A stretch of 64,000 nucleotides of DNA from Olsenella profusa (GTDB lineage Bacteria; Actinomycetota; Coriobacteriia; Coriobacteriales; Atopobiaceae), in assembly GCF_016900315.1 (NCBI RefSeq), contig NZ_JACSNQ010000004.1:1-64000 (forward strand), given 5' to 3'. The notes under the pieces were generated by a model. That model was not told the DNA's origin and did not search any database. It saw only the letters and a program-made list of their open reading frames with translations. Shown here piece by piece: positions 11,219 to 31,695 of the stretch. Made by a program: the position numbers and the translations under genes. Every line of letters begins with the position of its first letter. Position 1 is the first letter of the stretch.

Positions 11219-11252
11219 ACCAGCTAATCATACCGTGGCGGAGGCGTGTTCA

Positions 11253-11312
11253 CTACATCCAGCGGAATGCGGCGCGGAACAGCCAGCGCGCCGCCCTAAG
11301 CAAGATTCTCAT
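11253..11312 (-). CDS. 19-residue aromatic/basic peptide, copy 1
   Basis: The frame encodes MRILLRAARWLFRAAFRWM and is preceded by GGGGAGGAGG three bases before the ATG. A near-identical peptide (MRVLMRAIRWLFRAVFRWM) is encoded at 15708-15767. A helical wheel would put Arg and Trp/Phe on different faces, so a membrane-active amphipathic helix is plausible. Hairpin A follows. Conservation of both peptide and ribosome-binding site argues that it is translated; the function is unknown. Confidence 0.45.
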   Translation of the reverse strand: MRILLRAARWLFRAAFRWM

Positions 11313-11787
11313 AGTCCTCCTCCCCGAGCACCTCGGCGGCGAGCGTCGAGGGGGTGCGCGACGAGAGCGCGAGCGTGAGGCACGAAAAGCCCAGGCACGC
11401 GGCGTACATGAGCCCCACGCACGCGAGCGCGGCCTGCCCCGCCGTGAGCGGGTAGGGCGAGGAGAGCGCCATGCTCTGGACCGAGAGCCCGAAGCCCTCC
11501 GCCCCGTAGAAGGCGAGCGAGACCCCGACGACGATGGCGGCGCAGAGGACGAAGTAGGCGGTGGCGTAGGCGAGCGCGGCCACGACCTTGGCCGCCACGA
11601 GCGTCGAGCGGCCGCGCCGGGTGGCGAGCACCACCGCGTCCGCGCCGGACTGGTACTCGAAGGAGAACGCGGGCGCAAGCGTCACGCATACCGCCAGGAT
11701 CGCGAAGACGAGGAAGGCCGCGCGGTCGCCCGCCGCGGGCTCCTGGGCCCCGGCTGGGGCGAGTGACGCCGGGCGAGGGGCCGCCAC
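11296..11787 (-). pseudogene. Inverted fragment of the ABC permease gene at 14376-15641
   Basis: Bases 11339-11723 read on the minus strand are identical, as far as I can compare, to 14998-15382 on the plus strand, which is the middle of the intact permease gene (from AAFLVFAILAVCVTL to SSRTPSTLA). The fragment lacks the N-terminal 200 residues and the C-terminal helices. It is flanked instead by an unrelated Pro/Ala-rich start and the tail AEVLGEEDYENLA. No good ribosome-binding site precedes a plausible ATG. It is best seen as a recent partial duplication. Confidence 0.75.
11339..11723 (-). repeat. 385-bp inverted repeat, copy 1
   Basis: This segment is the reverse complement of 14998-15382 with no mismatch found by eye. 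The copies are about 3.3 kb apart in opposite orientation and enclose the sigma factor, its membrane partner and the ABC ATPase gene. Such a repeat is long enough for homologous recombination. Confidence 0.85.
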
Positions 11788-11811
11788 GAGAAGTCCCCAC
11801 GGCGGCCCCTC
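11775..11811 (-). terminator. Hairpin B of the three-copy hairpin family
   Basis: GAGGGGCCGCC (11775-11785) pairs perfectly with GGCGGCCCCTC (11801-11811). The loop ends AAGTCCCCAC, nearly the same as in hairpin C. It lies 24 bases downstream of the small protein gene at 11836-11952 on the minus strand and probably terminates it. Confidence 0.55.
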
Positions 11812-11835
11812 CCCGGCACCTCCCGCCGCCGGCTC

Positions 11836-11952
11836 CTACCTCACGAAGAGGCCCCCACTCGTCACCCCGTAGGCCACCACCAGGGCGAAGAGCGCCAGGA
11901 CGACGCAGCCGAAGCGCTTGGTGAGCCCGCGCGTCTCGAGCATGTAGCCCAT
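11836..11952 (-). CDS. 38-residue small membrane protein with ABC-ATPase-like N-terminus
   Basis: The ATG at 11952 follows AGAAGGGA by eight bases. The first residues, MLETRGLTKRFG, look like the start of an ABC ATPase domain, but the sequence then turns into a membrane helix (CVVLALFALVVAYGV) and stops after SGGLFVR. Hairpin B follows. It may be a remnant of a rearranged ABC gene or a real small membrane protein; the intact ribosome-binding site and terminator favour expression. I know no function for it. Confidence 0.45.
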   Translation of the reverse strand: MGYMLETRGLTKRFGCVVLALFALVVAYGVTSGGLFVR

Positions 11953-12141
11953 GGGTTCGTCCCTTCTCTCCCGGGCGCGCGGACCGAGTCGCCGTGCCCG
12001 CGCGCCTCACCTTTCGGGTTCACCATCCATGGTGGGGCGCGTTTCTAACGAAGCCGTAACGGCCGATGGCGAAAGTTTTTTCAATCCGACCGCTCATCCG
12101 GGGCCGCCGCTGCGTTAATAGGGATAGAGGGAGGTGGCGCC

Positions 12142-14383: not shown

Positions 14384-15641
14384 GCTCATCCTGTTCGAGC
14401 TCAAGAAGATGCTCTCCCGCCGCGTGGCGCTCGCGGCCAACGTCGGCGTCGTCGTATTCCTCGTCGCCATCATGGCGCTCAACGTGGTCCAGACCAAGAC
14501 GGCGAACGCCCGGGGCGAGATCGTCTCCGGCACCGAGGCTATCGCGCAGATGCGCGCCGACGCCGAGGAGCACGCGGGCACGATAACCGCCGAGCGCGCG
14601 GCTGCGGACATAGCCGCCTACCAGGAGACGGTCTTCTCGCGCATCGACCGCGACGCCGTGACCCAGATGACGGGCTCGGCCGTCTACGACCTCATGTTCC
14701 AGAGCTTCTCCGACGAGGAGGTCTACGAGCTCTACAACCCCTACTGGAGCTGGCTGCTGCGCCCCTGGCGGATCTCGGGCGAGGAGCCCGCGCAGACGGC
14801 CGCCCGCGTGACGCCCGAGATGGCGGCCGACTGGTACGGCGCCGCCGACGACCTGACCCAGGCGGCCCTCGACGACGGCCAGGGCGGCATGTGGGAGTAC
14901 TCCGAGGCGGAGCGCGCGTACTGGACGGAGATGCGCTCCTCCGTGCCCGAGCCCATCGAATACGGCTACTCGGGCGGCTGGGGCAACGTGGTCGACTGCG
15001 CGGCCTTCCTCGTCTTCGCGATCCTGGCGGTATGCGTGACGCTTGCGCCCGCGTTCTCCTTCGAGTACCAGTCCGGCGCGGACGCGGTGGTGCTCGCCAC
15101 CCGGCGCGGCCGCTCGACGCTCGTGGCGGCCAAGGTCGTGGCCGCGCTCGCCTACGCCACCGCCTACTTCGTCCTCTGCGCCGCCATCGTCGTCGGGGTC
15201 TCGCTCGCCTTCTACGGGGCGGAGGGCTTCGGGCTCTCGGTCCAGAGCATGGCGCTCTCCTCGCCCTACCCGCTCACGGCGGGGCAGGCCGCGCTCGCGT
15301 GCGTGGGGCTCATGTACGCCGCGTGCCTGGGCTTTTCGTGCCTCACGCTCGCGCTCTCGTCGCGCACCCCCTCGACGCTCGCGGTCTTCCTGACGGACGT
15401 GGTGCTCGTGCTGCTCACGGGGCTCGTCCCCTCGGCCGGCGTGGGCGCGCTCGAGCGCGTGCTTGCGCTCTTCCCGATCAACTTCGCCAACTTCAGCGTG
15501 CTCTACACGGCGCTCGAGTCCTACCCGCTCGGCCCGTTCGTGCTCGACCTCATCGGCATGGTGCTCCTCGTCTACGCAGCGCTTGCGCTCGTCTCGACCC
15601 CCGTGGCGGTGGTCTCCTTCAGGAGGCGCCAGGTGGCGTAG
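14376..15641 (+). CDS. ABC-2 type permease with large extracytoplasmic domain
   Basis: The 421-residue permease has one helix near the N-terminus (ALAANVGVVVFLVAIMALNV), a polar extracytoplasmic region of about 150 residues, and then five to six helices starting at FLVFAILAVCV. GAGGAGG lies just upstream of the ATG. It should pair with the ATPase of the overlapping gene. Bases 14998-15382 are duplicated in inverted orientation at 11339-11723, so recombination between the copies would exchange the C-terminal 86 codons of this protein. Confidence 0.82.
   Translation: MPRLILFELKKMLSRRVALAANVGVVVFLVAIMALNVVQTKTANARGEIVSGTEAIAQMRADAEEHAGTITAERAAADIAAYQETVFSRIDRDAVTQMTGSAVYDLMFQSFSDEEVYELYNPYWSWLLRPWRISGEEPAQTAARVTPEMAADWYGAADDLTQAALDDGQGGMWEYSEAERAYWTEMRSSVPEPIEYGYSGGWGNVVDCAAFLVFAILAVCVTLAPAFSFEYQSGADAVVLATRRGRSTLVAAKVVAALAYATAYFVLCAAIVVGVSLAFYGAEGFGLSVQSMALSSPYPLTAGQAALACVGLMYAACLGFSCLTLALSSRTPSTLAVFLTDVVLVLLTGLVPSAGVGALERVLALFPINFANFSVLYTALESYPLGPFVLDLIGMVLLVYAALALVSTPVAVVSFRRRQVA
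14998..15382 (+). repeat. 385-bp inverted repeat, copy 2 (inside permease gene)
   Basis: This is the copy located within the intact permease gene. It matches 11339-11723 in reverse complement. The match ends sharply on both sides (T/C difference at 14997; divergence after 15382). Confidence 0.85.
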
Positions 15642-15770: not shown

Positions 15771-16271
15771 TCACACCCCCTCCCCGGCCGCCGAGACCGC
15801 CTCGGCGGCCTCCTCGCGCGCCGCGAGCGTGAACCCGTAGAGCGCGCACGCCTCCTCCGCGCCGAGGTCGGGCCTCGCCCGCGACACCGCGCCGTCGAGC
15901 CACAGCGCCCGCCGCAGGAGGCAGGCCCCGGGGTCGCCCTCGTAGAGGCGCTGCTCGGCGGCCGACAGCCGCCGGTCGTCGACGAGCGAGCCGCCGAGCC
16001 GCCAGTACCTGAGCCTCCCGTCCCTGCTCACGGACTCTATCGAGCGGACCTCCTCCGGCGAGGCGAGCATGAGCCGCCAGCCGCGCCTGCGCTCGGCGAC
16101 GCCCCCATCGCCCGGGCCGTAGCTGTTCGCCTCGACCCAGAGCCCGTCGCTCTCCATGCGGTCGAACCTCAGGCGGTACTCCGTGGCGAGCGGCTGGCCG
16201 CGCCCCTCGCAGAGCCGCTCGAGGTCGAAGACGTCCTCGCGCCCGTCGGCGTAGCTCACCTCGACGACCAT
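15771..16271 (-). CDS. Hypothetical protein of the mobilisation operon
   Basis: The 166-residue protein starts inside the end of the relaxase gene (16-base overlap), which indicates coupling. It begins MVVEVSYADGREDVFDLERL and contains a beta-rich domain with EYRLRFDRMESDGLWVEANS and a C-terminal helical part (LRRALWLDGAVSRARPDLG, ACALYGFTLAAREEAAEAV). I do not recognise the family. No membrane segment is visible, so it is probably a cytoplasmic accessory factor for DNA transfer. Confidence 0.65.
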   Translation of the reverse strand: MVVEVSYADGREDVFDLERLCEGRGQPLATEYRLRFDRMESDGLWVEANSYGPGDGGVAERRRGWRLMLASPEEVRSIESVSRDGRLRYWRLGGSLVDDRRLSAAEQRLYEGDPGACLLRRALWLDGAVSRARPDLGAEEACALYGFTLAAREEAAEAVSAAGEGV

Positions 16272-17506
16272 CGGCTCCCCCTCTCGCCCCTCTCTCCTCT
16301 CTCCGCGCGCCCGCGCCGGCCCGCGTCGCGCCCGCCGCCGGGCGCTGCGCCTGCCCGTCCGCCGCGCCCCGCGGGGCCCCGGCCGGGGGCGGGCTGCCGC
16401 GGGGGCCGCGGCGCGGCCTCCGGGAGGGCCACCCCCTTGCGCTCGAAGAGCTCGTGCGCGCCCCTCAGGGCCGCCGCGCCCGCGGCGTCCCCGCGGGCCT
16501 CCAGCGCCCCGGCCCGCCGCTCCAGGTCCGCCGCGCCGCGGACGCGGTATCGCTCCAGCGCGCCCACGGCCCGGGCGAGCTCGTCGAGCTCGGCGAGGTC
16601 CCCGACCTCCAGCGCGGAGCGCGCGACGCGCTCCACCTCCTCGCGGGGCAGCGCGGGCGGGGCCGACCCCGCCCAGCGGGCCTCGATGGCGGCGCGGCCG
16701 TACTCGAGCCCGAGCCCCTCTCCGCGCACCCTGCGCGAGGGCGTCCCGGCGAGCGAGTACACCCAGTCGCGCCTGCCGCCGCGCGGCGAGGCGTCTGAGA
16801 GCTCGACGCCCATGGCGGCGAGGGCCGAGCGGAACTCCCCCTCGCGGCGCGACACGGCGCGCGCCGCCTCCACCCTGCCGCGGATGTCGGCCACCCAGGA
16901 GCGCCCGCCCCTGGCGGCTATCTCGCGCTCCGCGCGCCTGACGTGGACGCGCTGAGCCGTGCGCGGCCTCCCGCGCCCCGACCCCGCGCGCTCGTTGGAG
17001 TAGCGGTGGGCGAAGCCCCGCTCCGCCTCCATGCGCTGCAGTGAGCGGTTGAGCTCGAGGGGGTCGGGCACCTGGAGGCGCCTGCCCGTCGAGAGAACGG
17101 TGTTGTTCACGACGACGTGCGCGTGGGGTATGCGCCCGGCGTTGTCGTCGTGGTAGACGACGGCCACCTCGCAGTCGGTGAACCAGCGCCTGGCCCACGC
17201 CGTCGCGAGCTCCCTGAGCTCGTCGAGCGACACGCCGTTGCGGGGGTCGGGCGAGATCACGTAGTGCTTCCAGGTCCTCGCCGCGCGCCCGCGCCAGGGC
17301 AGGTCGTTGCCCGCCGCCGCGCGCGTGGCGTCCATGGCGGCGGCCCAGTCGTAGGGGCCGTGCTCGGGCAGGCCGCCGGGGCCCTCTCCCGCGACGGGCG
17401 GGGCGAGGTTCAGGAAGTCGCGGGCGAGAGCGCGCCCGCCCCGCTCGAGGTAGCGCATGACGCCGCGCGCCGAGGTGTGGCCGGTTATCGCCTTGAGGTT
17501 CGCCAC
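16256..17506 (-). CDS. Relaxase / mobilisation nuclease (MobP-type)
   Basis: The 416-residue protein has the N-terminal relaxase fold with catalytic Tyr candidate in GVMRYLERGG, His81 (KHYVISP) and the metal-binding His triad VVYHDDNAGRIPHAHVVVNN (His119, His128, His130). The C-terminal third is Arg/Gly/Pro-rich and probably unstructured. It would nick oriT and pilot the strand during conjugation. The MobC-like gene ends 9 bases upstream, and the putative oriT lies beyond that gene. Confidence 0.87.
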   Translation of the reverse strand: MANLKAITGHTSARGVMRYLERGGRALARDFLNLAPPVAGEGPGGLPEHGPYDWAAAMDATRAAAGNDLPWRGRAARTWKHYVISPDPRNGVSLDELRELATAWARRWFTDCEVAVVYHDDNAGRIPHAHVVVNNTVLSTGRRLQVPDPLELNRSLQRMEAERGFAHRYSNERAGSGRGRPRTAQRVHVRRAEREIAARGGRSWVADIRGRVEAARAVSRREGEFRSALAAMGVELSDASPRGGRRDWVYSLAGTPSRRVRGEGLGLEYGRAAIEARWAGSAPPALPREEVERVARSALEVGDLAELDELARAVGALERYRVRGAADLERRAGALEARGDAAGAAALRGAHELFERKGVALPEAAPRPPRQPAPGRGPAGRGGRAGAAPGGGRDAGRRGRAERGERGERGSRWSSR

Positions 17507-17515
17507 GGCCGCCCC

Positions 17516-17938
17516 CTAGAGGAAGAGCGCGGCGCGCCCGGTGAGCGACGCCATCTCGCGGCAGAGGCCCCCGGCCGCCCCGTTCACCGCGGAGAGCTCC
17601 GCGCGGGCGTCGCGCAGGGCCTCGGTCATGTCGCCGTAGTCGCGCGAGCCGTGCCGCAGGTGGAACGCGACGGAGTTGAGCGCGTGGACGCCCTGGTTGT
17701 AGTGGTAACCCCAGCGCCTGAGCTCCCGCGCGATGCGCAGGCACGTCGCGGTGTCCAGCACGATCGGCCCGCCCTCCGAGGCCGCGCGGGCGGCGAGCCC
17801 CGGGTCCGCCGCGGCGAGGCGCACCATGAGGCGGACGAGGTCCGACAGGTTCAGCCCCATCGCCACGGCGACCTCCTGCGCGCGCTCCTTGTCCTCCCTC
17901 GCGAGCCTGACGTACAGGCGCTCGGGGTACCTCTCCAT
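17516..17938 (-). CDS. mobC: MobC-like relaxosome accessory protein
   Basis: The 140-residue protein starts with RYPERLYVRLAREDKERAQEVAVAMGLNLSDLVRLMVR, a ribbon-helix-helix-like DNA-binding segment. It continues with the mobilisation-protein signature ELRRWGYHYNQGVHALNSVA and a helical C-terminus. MobC-type proteins bind oriT and recruit the relaxase. A GGGAGGGAG site precedes the ATG. It is the first gene of the minus-strand operon mobC-relaxase-hypothetical-peptide. Confidence 0.82.
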   Translation of the reverse strand: MERYPERLYVRLAREDKERAQEVAVAMGLNLSDLVRLMVRLAAADPGLAARAASEGGPIVLDTATCLRIARELRRWGYHYNQGVHALNSVAFHLRHGSRDYGDMTEALRDARAELSAVNGAAGGLCREMASLTGRAALFL

Positions 17939-18243
17939 GGGCTCCCTCCCTCTCCGTCCCAGGGGCGCGGGGGCTCCCCCGCTGCGCGCCGCGAGCGCGG
18001 CGGCGATCGCGAAGCCATCGCCGCCGGGCCCCGGCCCGATCCCGATCCGCAGCCATCGGAATCGGGCCGGGGGGCGCCCGCACGGCGCCGCGGCGCGCTG
18101 CTCCGGGCGCCGTGCGCACGGAGCAGGCTACTTGCTGACCTGGGCGCCCCGTGCGCGCGAACCCAGCGTACTTCGCGCCGCCCCGGCGCGGTACCTGACG
18201 CGATGTCAGGGGGCGGCGGGCGCGCCCGCCGCCCCCTCGCCCC
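17939..18243. other. Gene-free region with strong inverted repeats; candidate oriT
   Basis: A pair of 16-base arms, CCGGCCCGATCCCGAT (18031-18046) and ATCGGAATCGGGCCGG (18055-18070), matches with one mismatch around an eight-base loop. A second pair, GCACGGCGCC and GGCGCCGTGC, follows at about 18081-18116. The region lies directly upstream of mobC, where oriT is found in MobP elements. The nic site is not identifiable by eye. The right part ends in the terminator palindrome at 18208-18237. Confidence 0.5.
18208..18237 (-). terminator. Perfect 30-bp GC-rich palindrome after accessory gene
   Basis: AGGGGGCGGCGGGCG (18208-18222) is followed directly by its reverse complement (18223-18237). It begins six bases past the stop of the minus-strand gene at 18244-18894 and probably terminates it, though no T-tract is present. 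Confidence 0.5.
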
Positions 18244-18894
18244 CTACGCGCTGCGCCACGGGTCGCGCACGCGCCGGACCGTCTCCTCCCTCAGGAAGTT
18301 GTTGCAGTTCTCCTGCCACCCGCCGTTCCAGAAGCGCGCGACGTAGGGGACGCCCCCGACGCTGACGCCGTTCACCACGCGGCCCTCGTCCCCGAGGCCC
18401 ACGACCGGGTAGGGGCGGAGCGACCCGCCGACCTCGCGCACGAACACGGTGTCGCCGGGGCGCACCTCGCCGACGGGCACCTCCTCGGCGTCGAGGTAGG
18501 CCCCGAGCCTCTGCACCTCGGGCTGCGCCCGGTTGATCTCGCGCAGCATCCCGTCGAGGTCGTACTCCCGCTGCTCCTCGAAGCCCTCCCACGGGAGGAC
18601 GCGCCCGACGACGCGCCAGCCCTCGGTCACGTAGACGCCGTTGTCGTCGCCCGCGGAGAGCGCCGCCTCGTCGGTGGTGTAGGGCCACACCCCGACGCTC
18701 AGCCCCTCGCCGCCCATGTAGTTGCAGACGACCTGGCAGAGCCTCGCCCAGCCGTAGTCGTCGGTCTCGGGGGCGCGGAAGCCGCGCAGCCTGCAGTACT
18801 CGAGGAACGCCTCGACCGAGTCCCGCCCGCCGTTCCAGTGGAGGTAGACGCCTAGGTCGCGCTTCCTCGTGGTGATGACCGCCCTGTTTCCCAT
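18244..18894 (-). CDS. ICE accessory hypothetical protein
   Basis: The ATG at 18894 follows GAAGGGACGAGAG and gives 216 residues beginning MGNRAVITTRKRDLGVYLHW. The protein has a globular, aromatic-rich composition (WNGGRDSVEAFLEYCRLRGFR, then NGVYVTEGWRVVGRVLPWEG) and no membrane segment. Similar small proteins are common as cargo of conjugative elements in gut bacteria, but I know no function. The leader carries the shared hairpin at 18924-18951, as do the two other accessory units. Confidence 0.65.
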   Translation of the reverse strand: MGNRAVITTRKRDLGVYLHWNGGRDSVEAFLEYCRLRGFRAPETDDYGWARLCQVVCNYMGGEGLSVGVWPYTTDEAALSAGDDNGVYVTEGWRVVGRVLPWEGFEEQREYDLDGMLREINRAQPEVQRLGAYLDAEEVPVGEVRPGDTVFVREVGGSLRPYPVVGLGDEGRVVNGVSVGGVPYVARFWNGGWQENCNNFLREETVRRVRDPWRSA

Positions 18895-19200
18895 CTCTCG
18901 TCCCTTCTCTCGGGTTCGCGCCGGCCGAACGCAAGCGCGCTTGCCTTCGGCTTGCCTGCCGCGTGCCCGGCGCCGAGGGCGGGTCAACGAGCTGCGGGAA
19001 GGCCTCCGGCCGGTCCCTGCACCGATGCCGCGCAGCGGGATCTGTGGAGGGATCCTGCGGCGACATTGACGCGGGCGAGGCGCCGGGCACAGCCCCCGCG
19101 GCGCCTGAGCGGGCGTGGCCGTGCGGGAGACGGGGGTTCAGGGGGACCGGTCCCCCTGGCGCGGGGCGCGGGGGCGCGCAGCCCCCGCCGGGGCCCGGGC
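18895..19200 (-). repeat. Intergenic module 1 (leader + upstream region shared by three accessory units)
   Basis: From the start codon outwards the module contains a 29-base spacer with the ribosome-binding site, the hairpin 18924-18951, a conserved block containing GATCCCTCCACAGATCCCGC on the minus strand, a block with CGCCGCGGGGGCTGTG, the palindrome AGGGGGACCGGTCCCCCT near 19139, and a GCGGGGGC/GCCCCCGC hairpin. The same order occurs at 19770-20098; the part nearest the gene also occurs at 20759-20970. I see no gene in it. Confidence 0.7.
18924..18951 (-). promoter_or_regulatory. Conserved leader hairpin, copy 1
   Basis: GCCGAACGCAAGCG (18924-18937) pairs with CGCTTGCCTTCGGC (18938-18951) with one mismatch. 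It ends 29 bases before the start codon of the gene at 18894. Compared with copies 2 and 3, an A:T pair replaces a G:C pair at the same place in the stem, so the pairing is kept. Confidence 0.65.
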
Positions 19201-19221
19201 CGGACGGGCCCGGGCGGCGCC

Positions 19222-19473
19222 TCACCCGGCGGAGAAGGCGCACTCGGCGGTCTCGCAGTTCACCTCCTCGAGGTCGCCCTCGCCCACGAACACCGACGCC
19301 CAGCCCCCGCCCTCGGCGAGCGAGGCGGCCTCCTCGGACGCCCGCGCGACGGCGGCGGCGAGCTCGGCCGAGCCCGCGGGCGCCCTGCCCTCCTCGGACG
19401 CCCCGCCGCCCTCGCCGTCGTCCCACTCGAGCACGACGGTGAGCACGGGGAGGGCCGCCGCCCGCGCGCTCAC
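19222..19473 (-). CDS. Small acidic hypothetical protein
   Basis: The GTG at 19473 overlaps the stop of the DUF2958-like gene (GTGA), giving 83 residues. It begins MSARAAALPVLTVVLEWDDG, has an Ala/Glu-rich helix (AELAAAVARASEEAASLAEGG) and ends with two Cys (VNCETAECAF). The overlap points to coupled translation with the gene before it. No family recognised. Confidence 0.55.
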   Translation of the reverse strand: MSARAAALPVLTVVLEWDDGEGGGASEEGRAPAGSAELAAAVARASEEAASLAEGGGWASVFVGEGDLEEVNCETAECAFSAG

Positions 19474-19769
19474 TCGAACTCCCTCGCGGGGCGCGGCGCG
19501 AAGTGGAGGTCGCGCTCGACGAGCGAGGCGCCCCTCGAGCGGTTGAGCCCCTCCATCTCGCTCACCGAGAAGTAGCCCCACTCGGTCTCGATGCCGCGCA
19601 CGAGCCCGAACGCCTCGCCGGTCTCGGGGTCGTACTCGGTCAGGTACCAGTCCCAGCCGCCCGCCGGGGTGAACAGGTGGACGGCGGCGAGCGGCGCCTC
19701 GCACTCCTCCGTCGCGCCCAGCGCGGGGATGGTCGCCGCCACCTCGTCGGGGATGAGCCTCTCCTGCAT
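19470..19769 (-). CDS. DUF2958-like accessory protein
   Basis: The 99-residue protein (MQERLIPDEVAATIPALG..., then VHLFTPAGGWDWYLTEYDPETGEAFGLVRG and EWGYFSVSEME) fits the DUF2958 family, which is widespread on plasmids and conjugative elements and of unknown function. A GAGAGGAGAGCGAG site precedes the ATG at 19769. The shared leader hairpin ends 28 bases upstream. It forms a two-gene unit with 19222-19473. Confidence 0.72.
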   Translation of the reverse strand: MQERLIPDEVAATIPALGATEECEAPLAAVHLFTPAGGWDWYLTEYDPETGEAFGLVRGIETEWGYFSVSEMEGLNRSRGASLVERDLHFAPRPAREFE

Positions 19770-20098
19770 CTCGCTCTCCTCTCTCGCGTCCGCGCCCGCC
19801 GGATGCAAGCGCGCTTGCCTCCGGCCTTCCTGCCGCCGGGCCCGCGCGACCGCCGGCGTCAGCGGCCTGCGGGAAGGCCCCGGCCGGTCCCTGCACCGAT
19901 GCCGCGCAGCGGGATCTGTGGAGGGATCCTGCGGGCCGTTTACGGCGGCGGGGGCGCGGGCCACAGCCCCCGCGGCGCGTGAGCGGGCGTGGCGGTGCCG
20001 GTACGGGGGTGCAGGGGGACCGGTCCCCCTGGCGCGGGGCGCGGGGGCGCGCAGCCCCCGCGGGCGAGGGCGGGCCCCGGTCGCCCGGGGCCCCACCG
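19770..20098 (-). repeat. Intergenic module 2 of the accessory-unit repeat
   Basis: This gene-free stretch repeats module 1 in the same order: spacer with ribosome-binding site, hairpin (19798-19825), the GATCCCTCCACAGATCCCGC block, the CGCCGCGGGGGCTGTG-like block, the palindrome AGGGGGACCGGTCCCCCT near 20015, and a GCGGGGGC/GCCCCCGC hairpin next to the preceding gene. The long identical stretches between modules suggest recent copying. Confidence 0.7.
19798..19825 (-). promoter_or_regulatory. Conserved leader hairpin, copy 2
   Basis: GCCGGATGCAAGCG (19798-19811) pairs with CGCTTGCCTCCGGC (19812-19825) with one mismatch, 28 bases before the start codon at 19769. Confidence 0.65.
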
Positions 20099-20758
20099 CT
20101 AGATGTGGCAGTCGACCACCGTCGCGGTCCAGTCGGGGTCCGCCGTGTCGAGGAACCTCCCCCTGAAGCCGCGCAGCCAGCCGAGGGCCTCCTCGTCGGT
20201 CTCGGAGCTCAGGCCCCACCAGCCCATCTCGCCCTGCTCGTGCCACTCGCCGTCCGGCGTCACGACCGCCCACGTGCTGAACGCCGACTCGAGCTCGGCG
20301 AACGTGGCGGCGTCGCCGTACCTGCGCAGGTAGAACTCCGGAGAGCGGAGGGTGAGCGGCGCCCCGTCGCCCGCGCCCTCGACCGCCTGCGCCCAGAACT
20401 CCTCCGCGGCGGCGCGGGCCGCCTCGTCGGTGCCGAAGTCGCAGTCCCCCACGCGGGCGGAGTCGTAGCGCCCCTCGGGGTAGCGCCCGCCCAGCTGCTC
20501 GGGCACCGCGCGCGAGCCGCGGGACGCCCTGAGCATGCCGCGGAACCTGCCGCCGACCTCGTACCAGTCCCAGCGGGCGTTGGGGTTCTGCCAGTAGCCG
20601 CGGCGCCCGGTCTCCTCGTCCACCTCGCACTCCTCGTCCTCGAAGAACTCCATGTACTCGCGCGGCGGCTCGCCGCAGCAGTTCTCCATGTACGGGAGCA
20701 GGAGCCCCTCGACGTCCTGCCCCTCCCCCGTCAGCACCAGAACTGAGAAGTGGCTCAT
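20099..20758 (-). CDS. ICE accessory hypothetical protein (MSHFSVLV type)
   Basis: The 219-residue protein begins MSHFSVLVLTGEGQDVEGLLLPYMENC and contains WDWYEVGGRFRGML, ERDY-like aromatic patches and the C-terminal WWGLSSETDEEALGWLRGFRG. Proteins with this start are frequent cargo of conjugative elements and phages; their function is not known to me. GAAGGGAAGG lies a few bases before the ATG. The shared leader hairpin ends 30 bases upstream. Confidence 0.68.
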   Translation of the reverse strand: MSHFSVLVLTGEGQDVEGLLLPYMENCCGEPPREYMEFFEDEECEVDEETGRRGYWQNPNARWDWYEVGGRFRGMLRASRGSRAVPEQLGGRYPEGRYDSARVGDCDFGTDEAARAAAEEFWAQAVEGAGDGAPLTLRSPEFYLRRYGDAATFAELESAFSTWAVVTPDGEWHEQGEMGWWGLSSETDEEALGWLRGFRGRFLDTADPDWTATVVDCHI

Positions 20759-20788
20759 GATTGCCTTCCCTTCCTCGGGTCCGCGCCC

Positions 20789-20816
20789 GCCGGATGCAAG
20801 CGCGCTTGCCTCCGGC
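20789..20816 (-). promoter_or_regulatory. Conserved leader hairpin, copy 3 (with upstream module to about 20970)
   Basis: GCCGGATGCAAGCG (20789-20802) pairs with CGCTTGCCTCCGGC (20803-20816), 30 bases before the start codon at 20758. The upstream block (about 20830-20970) is a more diverged form of modules 1 and 2 and again includes CGCCGCGGGGGCTGTC. Confidence 0.65.
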
Positions 20817-20990
20817 CTGCCTGCCGGGAGAGCGCCGAGGAGGGGCGCGTCAAGGAGCCTGCGAAAAGGCCCCGGCCGCTCCCTCCACCGGCCCCGCGCG
20901 CGGGGGCTGTGGAGGGATTTTGCGGGCCCTTTACGCGCCGCCGACCGGCGCGACAGCCCCCGCGGCGCCTGAGCGGGCATGGGGACGCGA

Positions 20991-21047: not shown

Positions 21048-22454
21048 ATGCTCTACCTCGGCGACACGAACTACAAGGGCACCGACTTCTCGTACGGCTT
21101 CGACGGGGAGCGGCTCGAGCTCGTTCCCCGGCCCGGCGAATGGGACAAGGCCCAGGCGCTCGAGCCCGGATTTCGCCAGAATGGCGTCCGGTATTTCACG
21201 GGGGAGGGGGCGCCCATCGAGTCCGACTACTTCGAGCTGAGCCCGAGCAACGCCCCCGAGAAGCTCGTCGTCTTCCCTGAGTCGGACGCCTTCGCCCCGG
21301 AACCCATTCTCTTCAGGTCCCTTCGCGTCGGGGCGAGGGCGTTTTTCGAGCTCGACCGTCGCCTCCCGGTCGTCGGCCTTCGGTTCCACTCCCCCCACCT
21401 CTCGAAGTGCTACGACGACAAGGCCGCCCTCGACATGCGGTGTGAAAGAGAGGCGGCGAGATTCTCCGTGAGCACGAAGAGGCCCAAGCCCCTCTCCTGC
21501 GACTTCACGTTCGAGGGGAGGCCGGTCAGGGCCACCCTCTTCTACATCGAGAAGATGAAGCACGGTTCCGGGGAACCTCCCCTCACCGTGGAGTCGGCCC
21601 TCGACCTCAGCTTCGGCGCCGAGGACGACTTCTCCTTCGTCTTCGACCTCGCGATGGTTGCCCGCGACTTTCTGGCCTTCTGCCTCCAGGCCTCCGGCGC
21701 GGAGTTCGACGCGGTCGAGGTCCTCGTGGAGAAGCCGGCGAACGGCTGGTACCGGGAGCGCACAGGGAAGGACCGCGTCGTCTCCCCCGGGGGGAGCCTC
21801 ACGCTGAGCAAACGCCCGGTTGGGTGTGCCGGGGAGGTCAAGTATCACATCCCCCTCGGGATCGTTGACGGATTCGAGGGCGCGCTCTTCCAGAAGATCG
21901 CCGACGGGAAGCTGTCGCTCAGGCACCTCCCGTCCCCCGGCCGCGTCGGCGTCTGGGACGACGCCCGCATAATCCTCCTCGCGGCGTCGTTCGACCAGGA
22001 GGCGACCCTGCTCTACCCCGAGGGCATCCCCCACAAGGAGTCGACCATGGAGGCCCGGTCGATCGTCGTCGGCACCCTGGGGAAAGCCGAGGGGGAGGCC
22101 CGGAATAAGAAGATCAGGAAGAAGGTCATAAAGCTGGTGAAGCGGCTCACCAGGGTCGCGGAAGAGGGCGAGCCCTTCTCCTCTAGGATGGTTCAGGTCT
22201 ACAAGGATCATTCCAGCTTAATCGAGGGTCTTTGCCCCTGCCTCGACTCAAGGGAGTCGTTCACCGAGCTCGCTGAGAGGATCCAGGCCCTCCGCAACTC
22301 CCTCGCGCACGGCCATCTCGAGGTCGCCTACGGCGACAGCATCGTGGACGACGTGCTGGCCCTCGAGAAGGTCGTTCTCGCCATCCAGATGCTCCGGCTC
22401 GGGCTGAAGGACGAGGACGTCGCCCGAATGGTCGATATTGCACAGAGGGGATAG
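21048..22454 (+). CDS. ApeA-like HEPN domain protein, probable anti-phage (abortive infection) RNase
   Basis: The ATG at 21048 is chosen because CGGAGG lies six bases upstream; an in-frame ATG at 20979 lacks such a site. The 468-residue protein has a beta-rich N-terminal half (to about 330) with GDTNYKGTDFSYGFDG and FRSLRVGARAFFELDRRLPV, and a helical C-terminus with the HEPN motif RNSLAH (Arg416, His421), the RNase active site of this superfamily. The arrangement resembles ApeA proteins, which stop phage growth by RNA cleavage. It stands next to an AlbA-type regulator at the integrase end of the ICE, a usual place for defence cargo. The ApeA label is tentative; HEPN is more secure. Confidence 0.68.
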   Translation: MLYLGDTNYKGTDFSYGFDGERLELVPRPGEWDKAQALEPGFRQNGVRYFTGEGAPIESDYFELSPSNAPEKLVVFPESDAFAPEPILFRSLRVGARAFFELDRRLPVVGLRFHSPHLSKCYDDKAALDMRCEREAARFSVSTKRPKPLSCDFTFEGRPVRATLFYIEKMKHGSGEPPLTVESALDLSFGAEDDFSFVFDLAMVARDFLAFCLQASGAEFDAVEVLVEKPANGWYRERTGKDRVVSPGGSLTLSKRPVGCAGEVKYHIPLGIVDGFEGALFQKIADGKLSLRHLPSPGRVGVWDDARIILLAASFDQEATLLYPEGIPHKESTMEARSIVVGTLGKAEGEARNKKIRKKVIKLVKRLTRVAEEGEPFSSRMVQVYKDHSSLIEGLCPCLDSRESFTELAERIQALRNSLAHGHLEVAYGDSIVDDVLALEKVVLAIQMLRLGLKDEDVARMVDIAQRG

Positions 22455-22549
22455 CCCGCCCCTCCAGCAGGGGCCGACGGCGACCGCTGGTATCATGTCC
22501 TCAGAACAACCGCGGCCGCCGCGCCGCAGAGCAGCCGGGGGGTGGACGG

Positions 22550-23989
22550 ATGCAGAGCCCCGTCGTCACGAACAACATAGAGACGCTCTCCTCCACGCGG
22601 GAGAACCACTACTTCGACCGCAAGAGCGCGAGGATCAAGCCGGAGGACCTCGCCCGGCACGTCGTGGCCCTCGCCAACGCGTCGGGCGGGAAGGTCGTCG
22701 TGGGCATAGAGGACGACGGGACCGTGACCGGCTTCGCCCGCCAGGGCGCCCGCGACCCCGAGCGCTTCGAGCAGTGCGCCATCACCGACTGCTCCCCGGC
22801 GCCCGACGTCTCCTGCACGCGCGTGCCCGCCACCAACGCCTCCGGCGAGGAAGACTTCGTGCTCGTCATGGACGTCGAGCCGTCGACCAACCGCGTCATC
22901 ACGCGGCGCAAGGACGGCGCGGTGTTCCTGCGGCAGGGCGACCAGAGCAAGACGCTCGGCTACGAGCAGATACGCGCCCTCGAGTACGACAAGAACCAGC
23001 GCGTCTTCGAGGACGAGCTCGTCGAGGACTCCGGGATCGGGGACGTGGACCGCGAGGTCCTCGCCCGCTACAAGGAGATCCTCGGCACGGACGCCCCCGA
23101 CGAGCAGGTCCTCCGCGCGAGGCGCTTCATGCGCGACGGGCGCCTCACCGTGGCGGGGCTCCTGCTCTTCGGCGAGTGCCCGGCCGCCTTCCTCCCGCAG
23201 GCGCGCGTGCGCGTGCTCCGCTTCGACGGGACCAAGATGGAGACCGGCGAGCGGCTGAACACGACCAAGGACGTCACGTTCGACGGGCCCATCCCCAAGG
23301 TCGTCGACGGGGCCTTCTCCCTCATCTCCGGGATGCTGAGGGAGTTCCAGTTCCTCGGGGACGACGGCAGGTTCCAGACCGTGCCGGAGTACCCCGAGTT
23401 CGCCTGGTTCGAGGGCCTGGTCAACGCCGTCACCCACCGCGACTACGCCTACGCGGGGGACTACATCCGGGTCTCCATGTACGACGACAGGCTCGAGATC
23501 CTGAGCCCGGGCAGGCTCCCCAACACGGTCACGCTCGACAACATGCGCGAGACGCGCTACTCGAGGAACCCCAGGATCGCACGCACCCTCGTGGAGTTCG
23601 GCTGGGTCCGGGAGCTCAACGAGGGCGTGAAGCGCATCTACACCGAGATGCAGAGGCTCCTGCTCAACGACCCGGTCTTCAGCGAGCCGGACGGGACGAA
23701 GGTCCAGCTCACGCTGGAGAACAACATCGTCGCGAGGACCCTCAGGCAGCGGGACGCCCTCGAGGACAGGATCTCACGGGAGGTCCTGGACGGCCTCGGC
23801 GAGTACGAGATCGTCGCGGTCCAGGCAGCCTACGCGAGGGGCCGCGTGACCCCGAGGGAGCTCTCCTCGCTCATCAACAGGAGCCAGCGCTCCGCCACGC
23901 GCGTGCTCAAGGGGCTCTCGAACCGAGGGGTCCTTGAATGGCACGGGACTTCGACCAACGACCCCATGCAGTACTACACAGTCGCGTAG
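22550..23989 (+). CDS. AlbA_2/Schlafen-type ATP-binding transcriptional regulator
   Basis: The 479-residue protein has an N-terminal AlbA_2 domain (YFDRKSARIKPEDLARHVVALANASGGKVVVGIEDDG), a linker, an ATPase-like C-domain (EFAWFEGLVNAVTHRDY, DRLEILSPGRLP, RNPRIARTL), and a C-terminal winged helix (VTPRELSSLINRSQRSATRVLKGLSNRGVLEW). Such proteins act as DNA-binding regulators or take part in phage defence. The gene begins 95 bases after the HEPN gene. A phased repeat array follows its stop and could be its binding region, though that is only a guess. Confidence 0.8.
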   Translation: MQSPVVTNNIETLSSTRENHYFDRKSARIKPEDLARHVVALANASGGKVVVGIEDDGTVTGFARQGARDPERFEQCAITDCSPAPDVSCTRVPATNASGEEDFVLVMDVEPSTNRVITRRKDGAVFLRQGDQSKTLGYEQIRALEYDKNQRVFEDELVEDSGIGDVDREVLARYKEILGTDAPDEQVLRARRFMRDGRLTVAGLLLFGECPAAFLPQARVRVLRFDGTKMETGERLNTTKDVTFDGPIPKVVDGAFSLISGMLREFQFLGDDGRFQTVPEYPEFAWFEGLVNAVTHRDYAYAGDYIRVSMYDDRLEILSPGRLPNTVTLDNMRETRYSRNPRIARTLVEFGWVRELNEGVKRIYTEMQRLLLNDPVFSEPDGTKVQLTLENNIVARTLRQRDALEDRISREVLDGLGEYEIVAVQAAYARGRVTPRELSSLINRSQRSATRVLKGLSNRGVLEWHGTSTNDPMQYYTVA

Positions 23990-24004
23990 CTTGCCCCCGG
24001 CTCT

Positions 24005-24263
24005 GTCGGACCTCTGTCGGACCTCCGTCGGACCTCGGCCGCCGGGGCGCCCCCTGCACGCGCCCCTCCCGGCTCGAGATCTTGTCGGACCTCTGTCGGA
24101 CCTTGTCGGACCTCGGCCGCCGGCGTGCCCCACAAGTGCGCCTCCCGGCTCGAGATCTTGTCGGACCTCTGTCGGACCTTGTCGGACCTCGGGTGCCGGG
24201 GTCACCAGAGAGGCTCGTCTTGGTCCTCAGGGCTGTCGAACCTCTGTCGGACCTTGTCAGACC
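24005..24263. repeat. Array of four triplets of the repeat TGTCGGACCT
   Basis: GTCGGACC occurs at 24005, 24016, 24027; 24084, 24095, 24105; 24160, 24171, 24181; and 24246, with one-base variants at 24235 and 24256. Within each triplet the copies are 10-11 bases apart, and the triplets start 75-79 bases apart. The spacers between triplets 2 and 3 share CTCCCGGCTCGAGATCT. No gene is seen here. Confidence 0.85.
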
Positions 24264-24311
24264 CGGGCGACCAGTCACACGGAGCTTGAATTCGAAGCCT
24301 TCCCAACAGAT

Positions 24312-24363: not shown

Positions 24364-25863
24364 TCACGCGCCCTCCGCCATCACCGTGAGGCGTCCGCCC
24401 TCGAGCAGGACGGGCGCGCCGAGGCCGCTCTGGAGCTCGAGGAGCTCGCCGACCGAGGAGAGCGTGACCCTCCACTCCTCTACCCAGACGGTGCGCCCGT
24501 CGCGGACGACCTCGCGCTCGACGAGCCTCGCCCCCGGGCACGGCCGGGAGTCGGGGTCGGGGCCGACGACGGTGAGCCTCACCGGCTCGGCCCCGGCGGC
24601 AGCGGGCGCGGCGGGCGCCCCCTCGGGCTCCCCGGCGTCGTCCGCCTCCCCCGGGGCGTCGCCGGCGCCCTCGCCGCCCGTCATCAGCAGCCTGCCCATG
24701 AGGTCGGCGGCCTCGCGGTCGTTCCCGCCGATGGTGTGGGCGTAGACGTCCATCGTCATGCTCGACACCTCGTGGCCGAGGCGCCCCTGCACGCTCTTGG
24801 GGTCGATGCCGTTGCCGATCAGGAAGGTCGCCTGCGTGTGCCTCAGCTCGTGGAAGTCGTAGCCCACGTAGCGCCTCCGCTTGCGCCCGCCCTCCTCGGG
24901 CTCCTCGATCCTGCCGAGACCGTGCTCGACGAAGTAGCCGCGCTGCCACGCCGAGAAGTTGTCCGGGTCGTGGAGCCCGAAGGCGTCGTCGGAGCACACC
25001 GGGGTGTCGGGCGCCTGGGCGAGCCCCTGGACCTGCATCCTGCGGGCCTGCACCGCCCTCCAGGTCCTCAGGTAGGCGACCGTCCCGTCGTCGACGGCGA
25101 TCCACCTCGACCGCTTGTTCTTGGTCTCGCGCAGCTTCTTGTCGCGCGTGTACTGGTACTTGATGTAGATGCGGCGGTTCTCGAAGTCGACGTAGCGCCA
25201 CGTGAGGCCGAGCGCCTCGCCGCGCCTCACCCCGGTCGCGAGCGCGAGCCACACGGCGACGCGGCGGCCGTCGAAGCCCTCGGACCTGAGCGCCTGGCAC
25301 AGCGCTATGGCCTCGTCGAGCGTGAGGGGAGTGCGCTCGGCGGAGCGCGGGCGCGACGCGTCCACGTCGCGGCACGGGTTGTGCTTGACGAGGCGCTCCT
25401 TCACGGCGAGGTCCATGACCTGGCTGAGGACGGCGTTGAGCTTGTGGACGCCGCGCTGCGACACGCCGTGGTCCTCGCGCATGCTCGAGTAGACCATGTT
25501 GAGCAGCGAGAGCGAGAGGTCCGAGACGAGGATCCCGCCGAACCAGCGCTCCACCTTCCTGAGCTCGCACTCGTCGGTCGCGTGCGTGAGGGGCGAGAGG
25601 TCCTTGAGGAGCTTGCGCTGCTCGTGCCACCTCCACCCGAGCTCGGGCACCGTCAGGTTCTCGGGGTTCGCGAACCCCTCCTCGAGCTCGCGCCGGTACT
25701 CCTCGAGCGCCCTCCTCGCGTCCGACTTCGTTCCGTGCACCGTCCTCTTGGGGGACCTCAGGTACCTCCCGGTCTCGGGGTCCCTCCCGAGGTGGTGCCT
25801 GATGCGGTAGACCTTGCCGCGCTCGATCTCCTCGATCTCGCCGCAGCCCGTCACCTTCGGCAT
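24364..25863 (-). CDS. Tyrosine recombinase / ICE integrase
   Basis: The start at 25863 follows AAGGGAGG and gives 499 residues. An arm-binding domain (about 15-60) and a SAM-like core-binding domain (70-165) precede the catalytic domain with Arg213 (TGVRRGE), His338 and Arg341 (HELRH), His364 (LGH) and nucleophile Tyr374 (MDVYAHT). A Pro/Ala/Glu-rich extension of about 100 residues follows the catalytic Tyr, which is longer than usual. It catalyses insertion and excision at the adjacent tRNA-Met site. No excisionase gene is recognisable in the window. Confidence 0.92.
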   Translation of the reverse strand: MPKVTGCGEIEEIERGKVYRIRHHLGRDPETGRYLRSPKRTVHGTKSDARRALEEYRRELEEGFANPENLTVPELGWRWHEQRKLLKDLSPLTHATDECELRKVERWFGGILVSDLSLSLLNMVYSSMREDHGVSQRGVHKLNAVLSQVMDLAVKERLVKHNPCRDVDASRPRSAERTPLTLDEAIALCQALRSEGFDGRRVAVWLALATGVRRGEALGLTWRYVDFENRRIYIKYQYTRDKKLRETKNKRSRWIAVDDGTVAYLRTWRAVQARRMQVQGLAQAPDTPVCSDDAFGLHDPDNFSAWQRGYFVEHGLGRIEEPEEGGRKRRRYVGYDFHELRHTQATFLIGNGIDPKSVQGRLGHEVSSMTMDVYAHTIGGNDREAADLMGRLLMTGGEGAGDAPGEADDAGEPEGAPAAPAAAGAEPVRLTVVGPDPDSRPCPGARLVEREVVRDGRTVWVEEWRVTLSSVGELLELQSGLGAPVLLEGGRLTVMAEGA

Positions 25864-26003
25864 GGCCGCCTCCCTTGTGCTCTCGGCGGCCCATGGTGTG
25901 GAAGAGGGGCCGCCTGGTTCGTCCGGAGACGCGGAGCGCCCCCTCGAGGGAGGGACGAGTCGCCCGCCCTCCCTCGCGGCGAATTCTAGCAAGGGGGGAA
26001 TAT

Positions 26004-26170: not shown

Positions 26171-26218
<48 letters not shown>

Positions 26219-31083: not shown

Positions 31084-31610
31084 GTGCACCCTGCTGGTGC
31101 GCTCCGCTGGCGCGCTCTGCTGGCGCGCCATATCAGCCGCCCCCGGTCAGCCCGGTCGGCCCCGGCTGACCCCGGCCGACCCCGGCCGGCCCACAAGTGC
31201 ACCCGCTACGTGCACCGCTTGGCACGACCCGCAGCCACATCTCGTAGGTGCACCAGCTAAGTGCACCGCCGACGCGTCTTTCGGGTACACCTGACGGCCA
31301 TTCGCCAAGTGCACCCGCTAAGTGCACTGCGAGGTCAGTGCACTTGAAGGTATTTCTCGCCAAATCGGTGCACTTGAGCGATAAATCGCCTCCTCCCGGG
31401 TGCACTTGAGGAGTGCACCTGACAGATGGGTGCACTTGATGAGTGCACCCAGCGGACAGGCGCGCACGAGGAGTGCACTTGGTGAGTGCGCATGGCAGAT
31501 GGGTGCACCTGACGGGTACACCCAACGTACGGGCGTGCCCGGCGGGTGCACTTGATAGAGGCGCACGGCGAGCGGGTGCACTTGACGGAGGCACCTCGGC
31601 CCGGGAGCAC
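31084..31610. repeat. Degenerate GTGCAC array
   Basis: About 17 exact GTGCAC words occur, at 31084, 31197, 31210, 31248, 31261, 31309, 31322, 31338, 31368, 31400, 31413, 31430, 31443, 31473, 31503, 31546 and 31576. In the right half spacings cluster at 13-17, about 30 and 43 bases, suggesting a 15-base period. Left copies tend to read AAGTGCACC and right copies GGTGCACTTGA, so the array is loosely inverted-symmetric. A copy of GGCGAGAAGAACC follows at 31655. Short frames here look like by-products of the repeats. Confidence 0.8.
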
Positions 31611-31695
31611 TTGATGGGACGTCACGGCAGCCGAACGCACGCCGCAAAAGACCTGGCGAGAAGAACCTGCGGCCCGCCACCCCGCGCACAAAGAA

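Follow-up and report, generated by a model that had tools for sequence, protein, structure and literature searches.

Three genes near the predicted transfer origin of a mobile element in Olsenella profusa are each preceded by a copy of the same intergenic module, which combines a covarying structure biased toward the predicted transferred strand (T-strand), constant spacing and a variety of cargo genes. This module probably acts as a single-stranded DNA (ssDNA) promoter in the manner of Frpo and ssi, which drive genes of the leading region from ssDNA (PMC9849209, PMC11541004), joined to a hairpin at the 5' end of the mRNA, and would thereby serve an integrative mobilizable element as a cassette for early expression. 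The window referred to below is the whole stretch of 64,000 nucleotides that was analyzed.

The mobile element and its predicted transfer origin

The element contains a MOBP-type relaxase gene (16256-17506, minus strand; Pfam Relaxase PF03432, E 2.9e-9) and, beside it, a NikA/RelB-like gene (17516-17938, minus strand), which presumably codes for an oriT-binding accessory protein; its match to the Pfam NikA-like family is weak and below the cut-off, and homologues of the protein adjoin relaxases in other genomes. The predicted oriT core (18098-18136, plus strand) is composed of an inverted repeat, CTGCTCCG...CGGAGCAG, followed by the motif GCTACTTGCT, with the predicted nic at about CTTG|CT (18134/18135) on the plus strand. 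This putative nic site resembles the IncP/IncI nic motif, YATCCTG|Y. The same arrangement is found upstream of NikA genes at about ten Coriobacteriia loci (eight further ones and two close relatives of the window's element), among which the arms of the inverted repeat differ in sequence and the motif GCTACTTGCT is conserved; in three elements that were compared, conservation ends at this motif. On the strand that leads away from nikA and the relaxase gene, the inverted repeat stands on the 5' side of the motif, as expected for a nic on the plus strand. The region has the layout of a MOBP-type oriT, in which an inverted repeat precedes a conserved nic motif beside nikA and relaxase genes. With this predicted oriT, the plus strand would be the T-strand and the three units would form the start of the leading region, assignments that have good support. 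The units (18244-20939) follow the predicted nic (about 18134, plus strand), and all three genes are on the minus strand and thus oriented toward the predicted oriT.

The gene of unit 1 (18244-18894, minus strand; MGNRAVITT..., 216 aa) has no match in Pfam, NCBIfam or PHROG, and a fold search with its protein returned no known function. Homologues are located behind the same module at four other loci (L018, L019, L020 and L106), and the protein family is also present in phages. Directly past this gene there is a perfect, terminator-like 28-nt inverted repeat (18209-18236). Unit 2 contains a DUF2958 gene (19470-19769, minus strand; 99 aa; Pfam PF11171, E 1.2e-9), the end of which is overlapped by a small ORF without family match (19222-19476, minus strand; 84 aa), and unit 3 a gene for a protein of 219 aa (20099-20758, minus strand; MSHFSVLV...) that belongs to PHROG 10079 (function unknown; E 6.6e-28). 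None of the three units' proteins was assigned to a functional family by Pfam, NCBIfam or PHROG, the fold search having covered unit 1. The earlier note had described a palindrome, AGGGGGACCGGTCCCCCT, as part of the repeated flanks; it is terminator-like and indeed repeated, although only in two of the three units, past the stop codon of the upstream gene in each case (19140-19157, past the unit 2 genes, and 20013-20030, past the unit 3 gene).

The element ends with a tyrosine integrase gene (24364-25992, minus strand; Pfam Phage_integrase, E 6.6e-20), adjoined by the 3' part of a tRNA-Met-like sequence (26172-26218, plus strand; not called by ARAGORN), the presumed right attachment site. This sequence is present in a single copy in the draft genome, suggesting that the assembly lacks an intact tRNA and the element's left end, or has them elsewhere; a search for the left end did not find it. 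The units had been described as accessory units of an ICE, a designation that is doubtful since the 134-kb contig of the window carries no gene for a coupling protein, matches to such proteins in the draft genome being confined to contig C3. The element is therefore probably an integrative mobilizable element.

Several other features were noted in this region. Beyond unit 3 (21048-23989, plus strand), a weakly HEPN_Apea-like gene and a gene with Schlafen AlbA_2 and HATPase_c_4 domains possibly represent defence-type cargo, and between the AlbA-domain gene and the integrase gene there is an array of TGTCGGACCT-type repeats (TTGTCGGACCTCTGTCGGACC...; 24000-24270), possibly iterons or binding sites of an integrase or excisionase. 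An irregular non-coding array of GGTGCACTTGA and GTGCACC repeats (31190-31620) does not, as far as could be judged, belong to the mobile element. Part of a gene for an ABC-type membrane protein occurs twice in opposite orientation (11250-12010, minus strand, and 14890-15400, plus strand), with the shared translation FLVFAILAVCVTLAPAFSFEYQSGADAVV, which suggests an inverted duplication.

Two hairpins in a repeated module

The starts of the three genes (CAT on the plus strand) end at 18894, 19769 and 20758, and the 28-nt inverted repeats that the earlier note had placed 28-30 nt ahead of them are found at 18924-18951, 19798-19825 and 20789-20816 (all minus strand), at distances of 29, 28 and 30 nt. 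The common core also holds, the 14-mer GCAAGCGCGCTTGC being contained in all three hairpins and occurring at just these three sites in the 2.07-Mb genome, as does the described change of one stem pair from A:T to G:C. They are inverted repeats, though not perfect palindromes, because each has one central unpaired position (purine opposite purine on the gene strand). Inverted repeats that follow their exact scheme occur five times in the window, three of these being the hairpins themselves. Exact matches to the 14-mer in relatives mostly lack the outer stem, are often in coding sequence and look like chance, and the same applies to pattern matches in IMG/VR, Acidobacteriota and Rhizobium. Rfam gave no match above the gathering score and nothing relevant at a relaxed threshold.

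The covariation that had been proposed as a check of these hairpins is present. Since MAFFT did not give a sensible alignment, a hand alignment was scored, in which 93% of the cells are paired and both partners have changed in 9 of the 12 pairs, giving a covariation score of 0.482, against 0.159 for shuffled alignments. This covariation makes a structured leader plausible. In the region that extends from the large hairpin described below to the start codon, the mRNA strand folds slightly better in 16 of 19 cases. A role of the outer leader helix in sequestering the ribosome site was considered and rejected, because this site lies outside the helix in several members.

As the earlier note had claimed, repetition goes beyond the 28-nt hairpins and extends to whole intergenic regions; the largest part of the module had been overlooked, however. 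About 36 nt upstream of each 28-nt hairpin there is an imperfect three-way hairpin of about 95 nt (94-95 nt in the window), which lies on the plus strand at 18980-19074 in unit 1, 19855-19948 in unit 2 and 20846-20939 in unit 3, with covariance model scores of 107.5, 100.4 and 91.9 bits. Folded as ssDNA, these segments have z-scores of -3.5, -4.4 and -3.7 on the plus strand, compared with -0.4, -1.3 and -2.0 on the minus strand. The fold has a base stem (GTCAA:TTKAC), a side stem and a main arm; mismatches interrupt the main arm at regular intervals, and one of them, C·T in CACC/TGTG, is nearly invariant. Past the large hairpin of unit 1 there is a conserved block, GCCCCCGCGGCGCCTGAGCGGGCG (19092-19115; repeat family D9, with related blocks in other families), and the repeat comparison gave corresponding blocks in unit 2 (GCCCCCGCGGCGCGTGAGCGGGCG, 19966-19989) and unit 3 (GCCCCCGCGGCGCCTGAGCGGGCA, 20956-20979).

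Conservation of this structure was followed in two sets of copies. In an ordinary alignment of seven copies, 6 of 26 pairs have changed on both sides and almost none is broken. In 18 copies (alignment A4), 97.9% of the cells are paired and both partners have changed in 18 of 26 pairs, with a covariation score of 0.456, against 0.143 in shuffled and at most 0.111 in slid alignments, figures that lean toward the model because A4 was aligned and fitted to it. When the elements were folded one by one, independently, most gave closely similar topologies. The strand opposite to the gene folds better in all 16 elements examined (in G122b by a margin of just 0.1 kcal/mol) and its non-Watson-Crick cells include 32 G·T and one A·C, both counts being biased in the same direction by covariance models that were built on that strand. 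The plain alignment of the seven copies provides a less biased test, and here the consensus has -35.5 kcal/mol compared with -27.7 for the complement, which also contains more broken pairs. The large hairpin is thus stronger on the gene-opposite strand and the leader slightly so on the mRNA strand, which suggests that the former works as ssDNA and hints that the 28-nt hairpin works as RNA. Of the RNA- or operator-based control that had been proposed, the structured RNA leader is plausible, but the dominant conserved structure is the larger hairpin, and its conservation on the predicted T-strand points to control through ssDNA.

A covariance model of the seven copies (R1) found the large hairpin in other families of Coriobacteriia, and a second model (R2) added 5 further genomes, none of which had been used in building it; carriers with names include Thermophilibacter provencensis and Collinsella sp. 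An7. The same module, with the same spacing, is placed ahead of many unrelated small genes in these bacteria, among them genes of the MGNRAVITT, DUF2958, DUF3846, helix-turn-helix and J-domain-like families and others, and this distribution gives good support to the idea of a plug-in cassette whose genes are controlled in common. Copies in Enorma massiliensis, Collinsella ihumii and C. massiliensis, which keep the 28-nt hairpin and seem to have lost the large one, are probably remnants. Decayed copies with diverged hairpins and no obvious intact gene behind them were observed in two genomes of the same genus (L093:7196-7297 and L028 near 1516, in G016 and G029). In T. provencensis (G023; L018:9624-10147), unit 1 is present in two copies that are inverted relative to each other and meet at AGGGGGACCGGTCCCCCT beside a run of N, probably an assembly artefact, or perhaps a real inversion.

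The strand that forms the hairpin is opposite to the coding strand of the relaxase gene in five independent lineages (G000/G023/G132, G138, G122, G268 and G329/G331). In G138 and for one copy in G268 the element is located beyond the relaxase gene, where the strand fits and the position fits only in a circular form. The strand also agrees in G374, at a distance of 36 kb, and G357 is an exception, in which it disagrees with the nearest relaxase gene, 13 kb away. In the out-of-sample genome G291 (found only with R2), a nic motif is located upstream of the relaxase gene and the element about 2 kb further, on the predicted T-strand; the scan that located this motif also gave many chance sites (33 in the reversed sequence), so that the weight of this case is carried by position and strand. 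Separately, G122 has an ssb gene (L088:11318-11806, minus strand) near large hairpins and on the strand expected for a leading-region gene, and no hairpin was detected directly upstream of it.

Comparison with known ssDNA promoters

Like Frpo1 and Frpo2 of plasmid F, the modules are dispersed repeats located before (predicted) leading-region genes, with predicted transcription toward oriT and the predicted T-strand as the template, and like Frpo they contain an imperfect hairpin that is more stable on the T-strand. As a control, the two Frpo regions of F (repeats that are 89% identical) were folded, and for them as well the T-strand gives the more stable structure, by about 3-4 kcal/mol. The two systems differ in size and layout, because the Frpo repeats of F extend over about 460 bp and their strongest hairpin is about 330 nt away from the gene, whereas the large hairpin described here has 95 nt and lies 82-93 nt from the start codon. 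Moreover, Frpo of F contains canonical -35 and -10 boxes in the stem (PMC9849209), whereas the present module is GC-rich, lacks a -10 box and has the 28-nt hairpin at the presumed transcript start. No match to the module was obtained by blastn against 72,556 plasmids, which include carriers of F-type Frpo, nor by BLAST against phages. The ssi copies of ColIb-P9 are ssi1 to ssi3. In this plasmid, repeats homologous to Frpo are located in the leading region before early genes such as ssb, psiB and ardA (PMC9849209), and the modules resemble them, by description, in being several repeats in the predicted leading region before genes that would be expressed early.

Further candidates, predicted ssDNA promoters before leading-region genes, were reported by Samuel et al. 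in 2024, who found them by BLAST with known Frpo and ssi sequences together with a -35/-10 consensus (PMC11541004); GC-rich sets without such boxes would be missed by a search on this basis, and the string "Actino" is absent from that paper. The nearest Gram-positive parallel is provided by the EGeRS1 regions of the pLS20 family (400-600 bp), which, like the modules, are repeated between genes, contain inverted repeats, lack a strong ordinary promoter and precede variable genes of a mobile element, in pLS20 plasmids genes for establishment; their authors held ssDNA promoters to be highly unlikely, owing to the strand and to the lack of a promoter in the fold (PMC8708921). No report of such modules in Actinobacteria was found in a literature search that covered few subscription journals. 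Location in the leading region (with respect to the predicted oriT), the predicted T-strand as template and an imperfect T-strand hairpin are common to the modules and Frpo/ssi, and sequence homology is not, so that the best reading is that of a module that would work like Frpo/ssi, without detectable sequence homology, and not of a homologous member.

Proposed mechanism and its alternatives

Spacing within the module is constant. In all 17 elements compared, the sequence TTGAC (first T or C) occurs 36-39 nt ahead of the first base of the 28-nt hairpin (in the window, minus strand, at 18983-18987 in unit 1 and 20849-20853 in unit 3), which is the spacing expected of a -35 box to a transcript start and would make the 28-nt hairpin the 5' end of the mRNA. 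The distance that separates the edge of the large hairpin and the start codon is 82-93 nt in 15 of 17 elements (116 nt in An7b and 127 nt in G329). A TTGAC:GTCAA duplex is present at constant spacing in the hairpin base, with no convincing -10 box in the stem; a sigma-70 scan recognized no -10 box in double-stranded DNA (dsDNA) and none in the folded form is convincing. Sigma-70 and terminator scans gave nothing else of use.

As to the use of RNA polymerase, the start site, the role of the 28-nt hairpin and silence in dsDNA, we infer the following course of events. The plus strand would enter the recipient 5' end first, from the nic at about 18134, and each segment of about 95 nt on the incoming strand would fold into an imperfect hairpin, long and bearing a side stem, whose base forms a duplex with the -35-like TTGAC facing the gene. 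This duplex would be the binding site of host RNA polymerase, which would then use the single-stranded T-strand as template in the direction of oriT, the transcript starting just ahead of the 28-nt hairpin; the latter would become a 5'-terminal stem-loop, with a purine-rich ribosome site and then the start codon behind it. In dsDNA the expected -10 region is GC-rich and unlike TATAAT, suggesting that the promoter should be nearly silent there until the next transfer. The cargo genes would have establishment or anti-defence roles.

The large hairpins could instead be priming sites of the sso/ssi type for second-strand synthesis, with transcription of the genes as a by-product or from another promoter. 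The same strand and folding would be equally expected in this case, and Frpo itself is described as both promoter and primer site in work cited by PMC9849209 and PMC11541004; priming, however, requires neither one copy per gene at a fixed distance from the start codon nor a constant spacing from TTGAC to the 28-nt hairpin, and this explanation is rather unlikely. About the same low probability is given to an ordinary dsDNA promoter followed by an RNA leader, in which the 28-nt hairpin and the outer helix would regulate mRNA stability or translation and the large hairpin would be a side feature. The covariation of the 28-nt hairpin and the slightly better folding of the leader region on the mRNA strand are in its favour, but dsDNA contains no -10 box and the conserved large structure on the opposite strand would be left unexplained.

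A dsDNA operator, that is, a dimeric regulator bound to a near-palindromic 28-bp site and controlling the three units, is suggested by the near-perfect inverted repeat in three copies. Relatives keep the pairing while the sequence changes, whereas a DNA-binding protein would conserve sequence and not pairing, and one central position is usually asymmetrical; this alternative is therefore improbable. It is slightly less probable still that the large hairpin represents a plus-strand transcript, a structured non-coding RNA that would be antisense to the leaders of the genes, since no promoter for such an RNA was seen and the fixed spacing of the hairpin to a gene of the other strand would have no reason, even if G-U pairs favour the folding of a plus-strand RNA as well. 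Least credible is an ssDNA-folded recombination site, similar to integron attC, that exchanges single-gene cassettes, which would account for different single genes in tandem behind the same imperfect, strand-biased hairpin, but the site is upstream of the start codon at a fixed distance instead of past the stop codon, the folded segment forms a three-way junction that includes a side stem, and the sole recombinase annotated in the element (Pfam) is the integrase at its end.

A more far-reaching proposal can be made tentatively, with odds somewhat against it: elements of Coriobacteriia may have evolved a strand-gated cassette of their own, unrelated to Frpo, in which the upstream half of the promoter has given way to a three-way ssDNA hairpin that covaries, melting of a -10 region is dispensed with because the template is already single-stranded, a 5' mRNA hairpin completes the module, and the swapping of genes provides every element with establishment or anti-defence genes of its own.

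To our knowledge, proven ssDNA promoters come from a few enterobacterial plasmids. If a separate version, GC-rich and without a -10 box, exists in integrative elements of gut actinobacteria, this would suggest that gene expression from incoming single strands is general, that it has arisen more than once and that sequence searches miss it. The structure model offers a way to find leading-region genes, mostly uncharacterized, in a group that is poor in genetic tools, and the directly testable question arises of how RNA polymerase initiates on folded ssDNA that has no -10 element.
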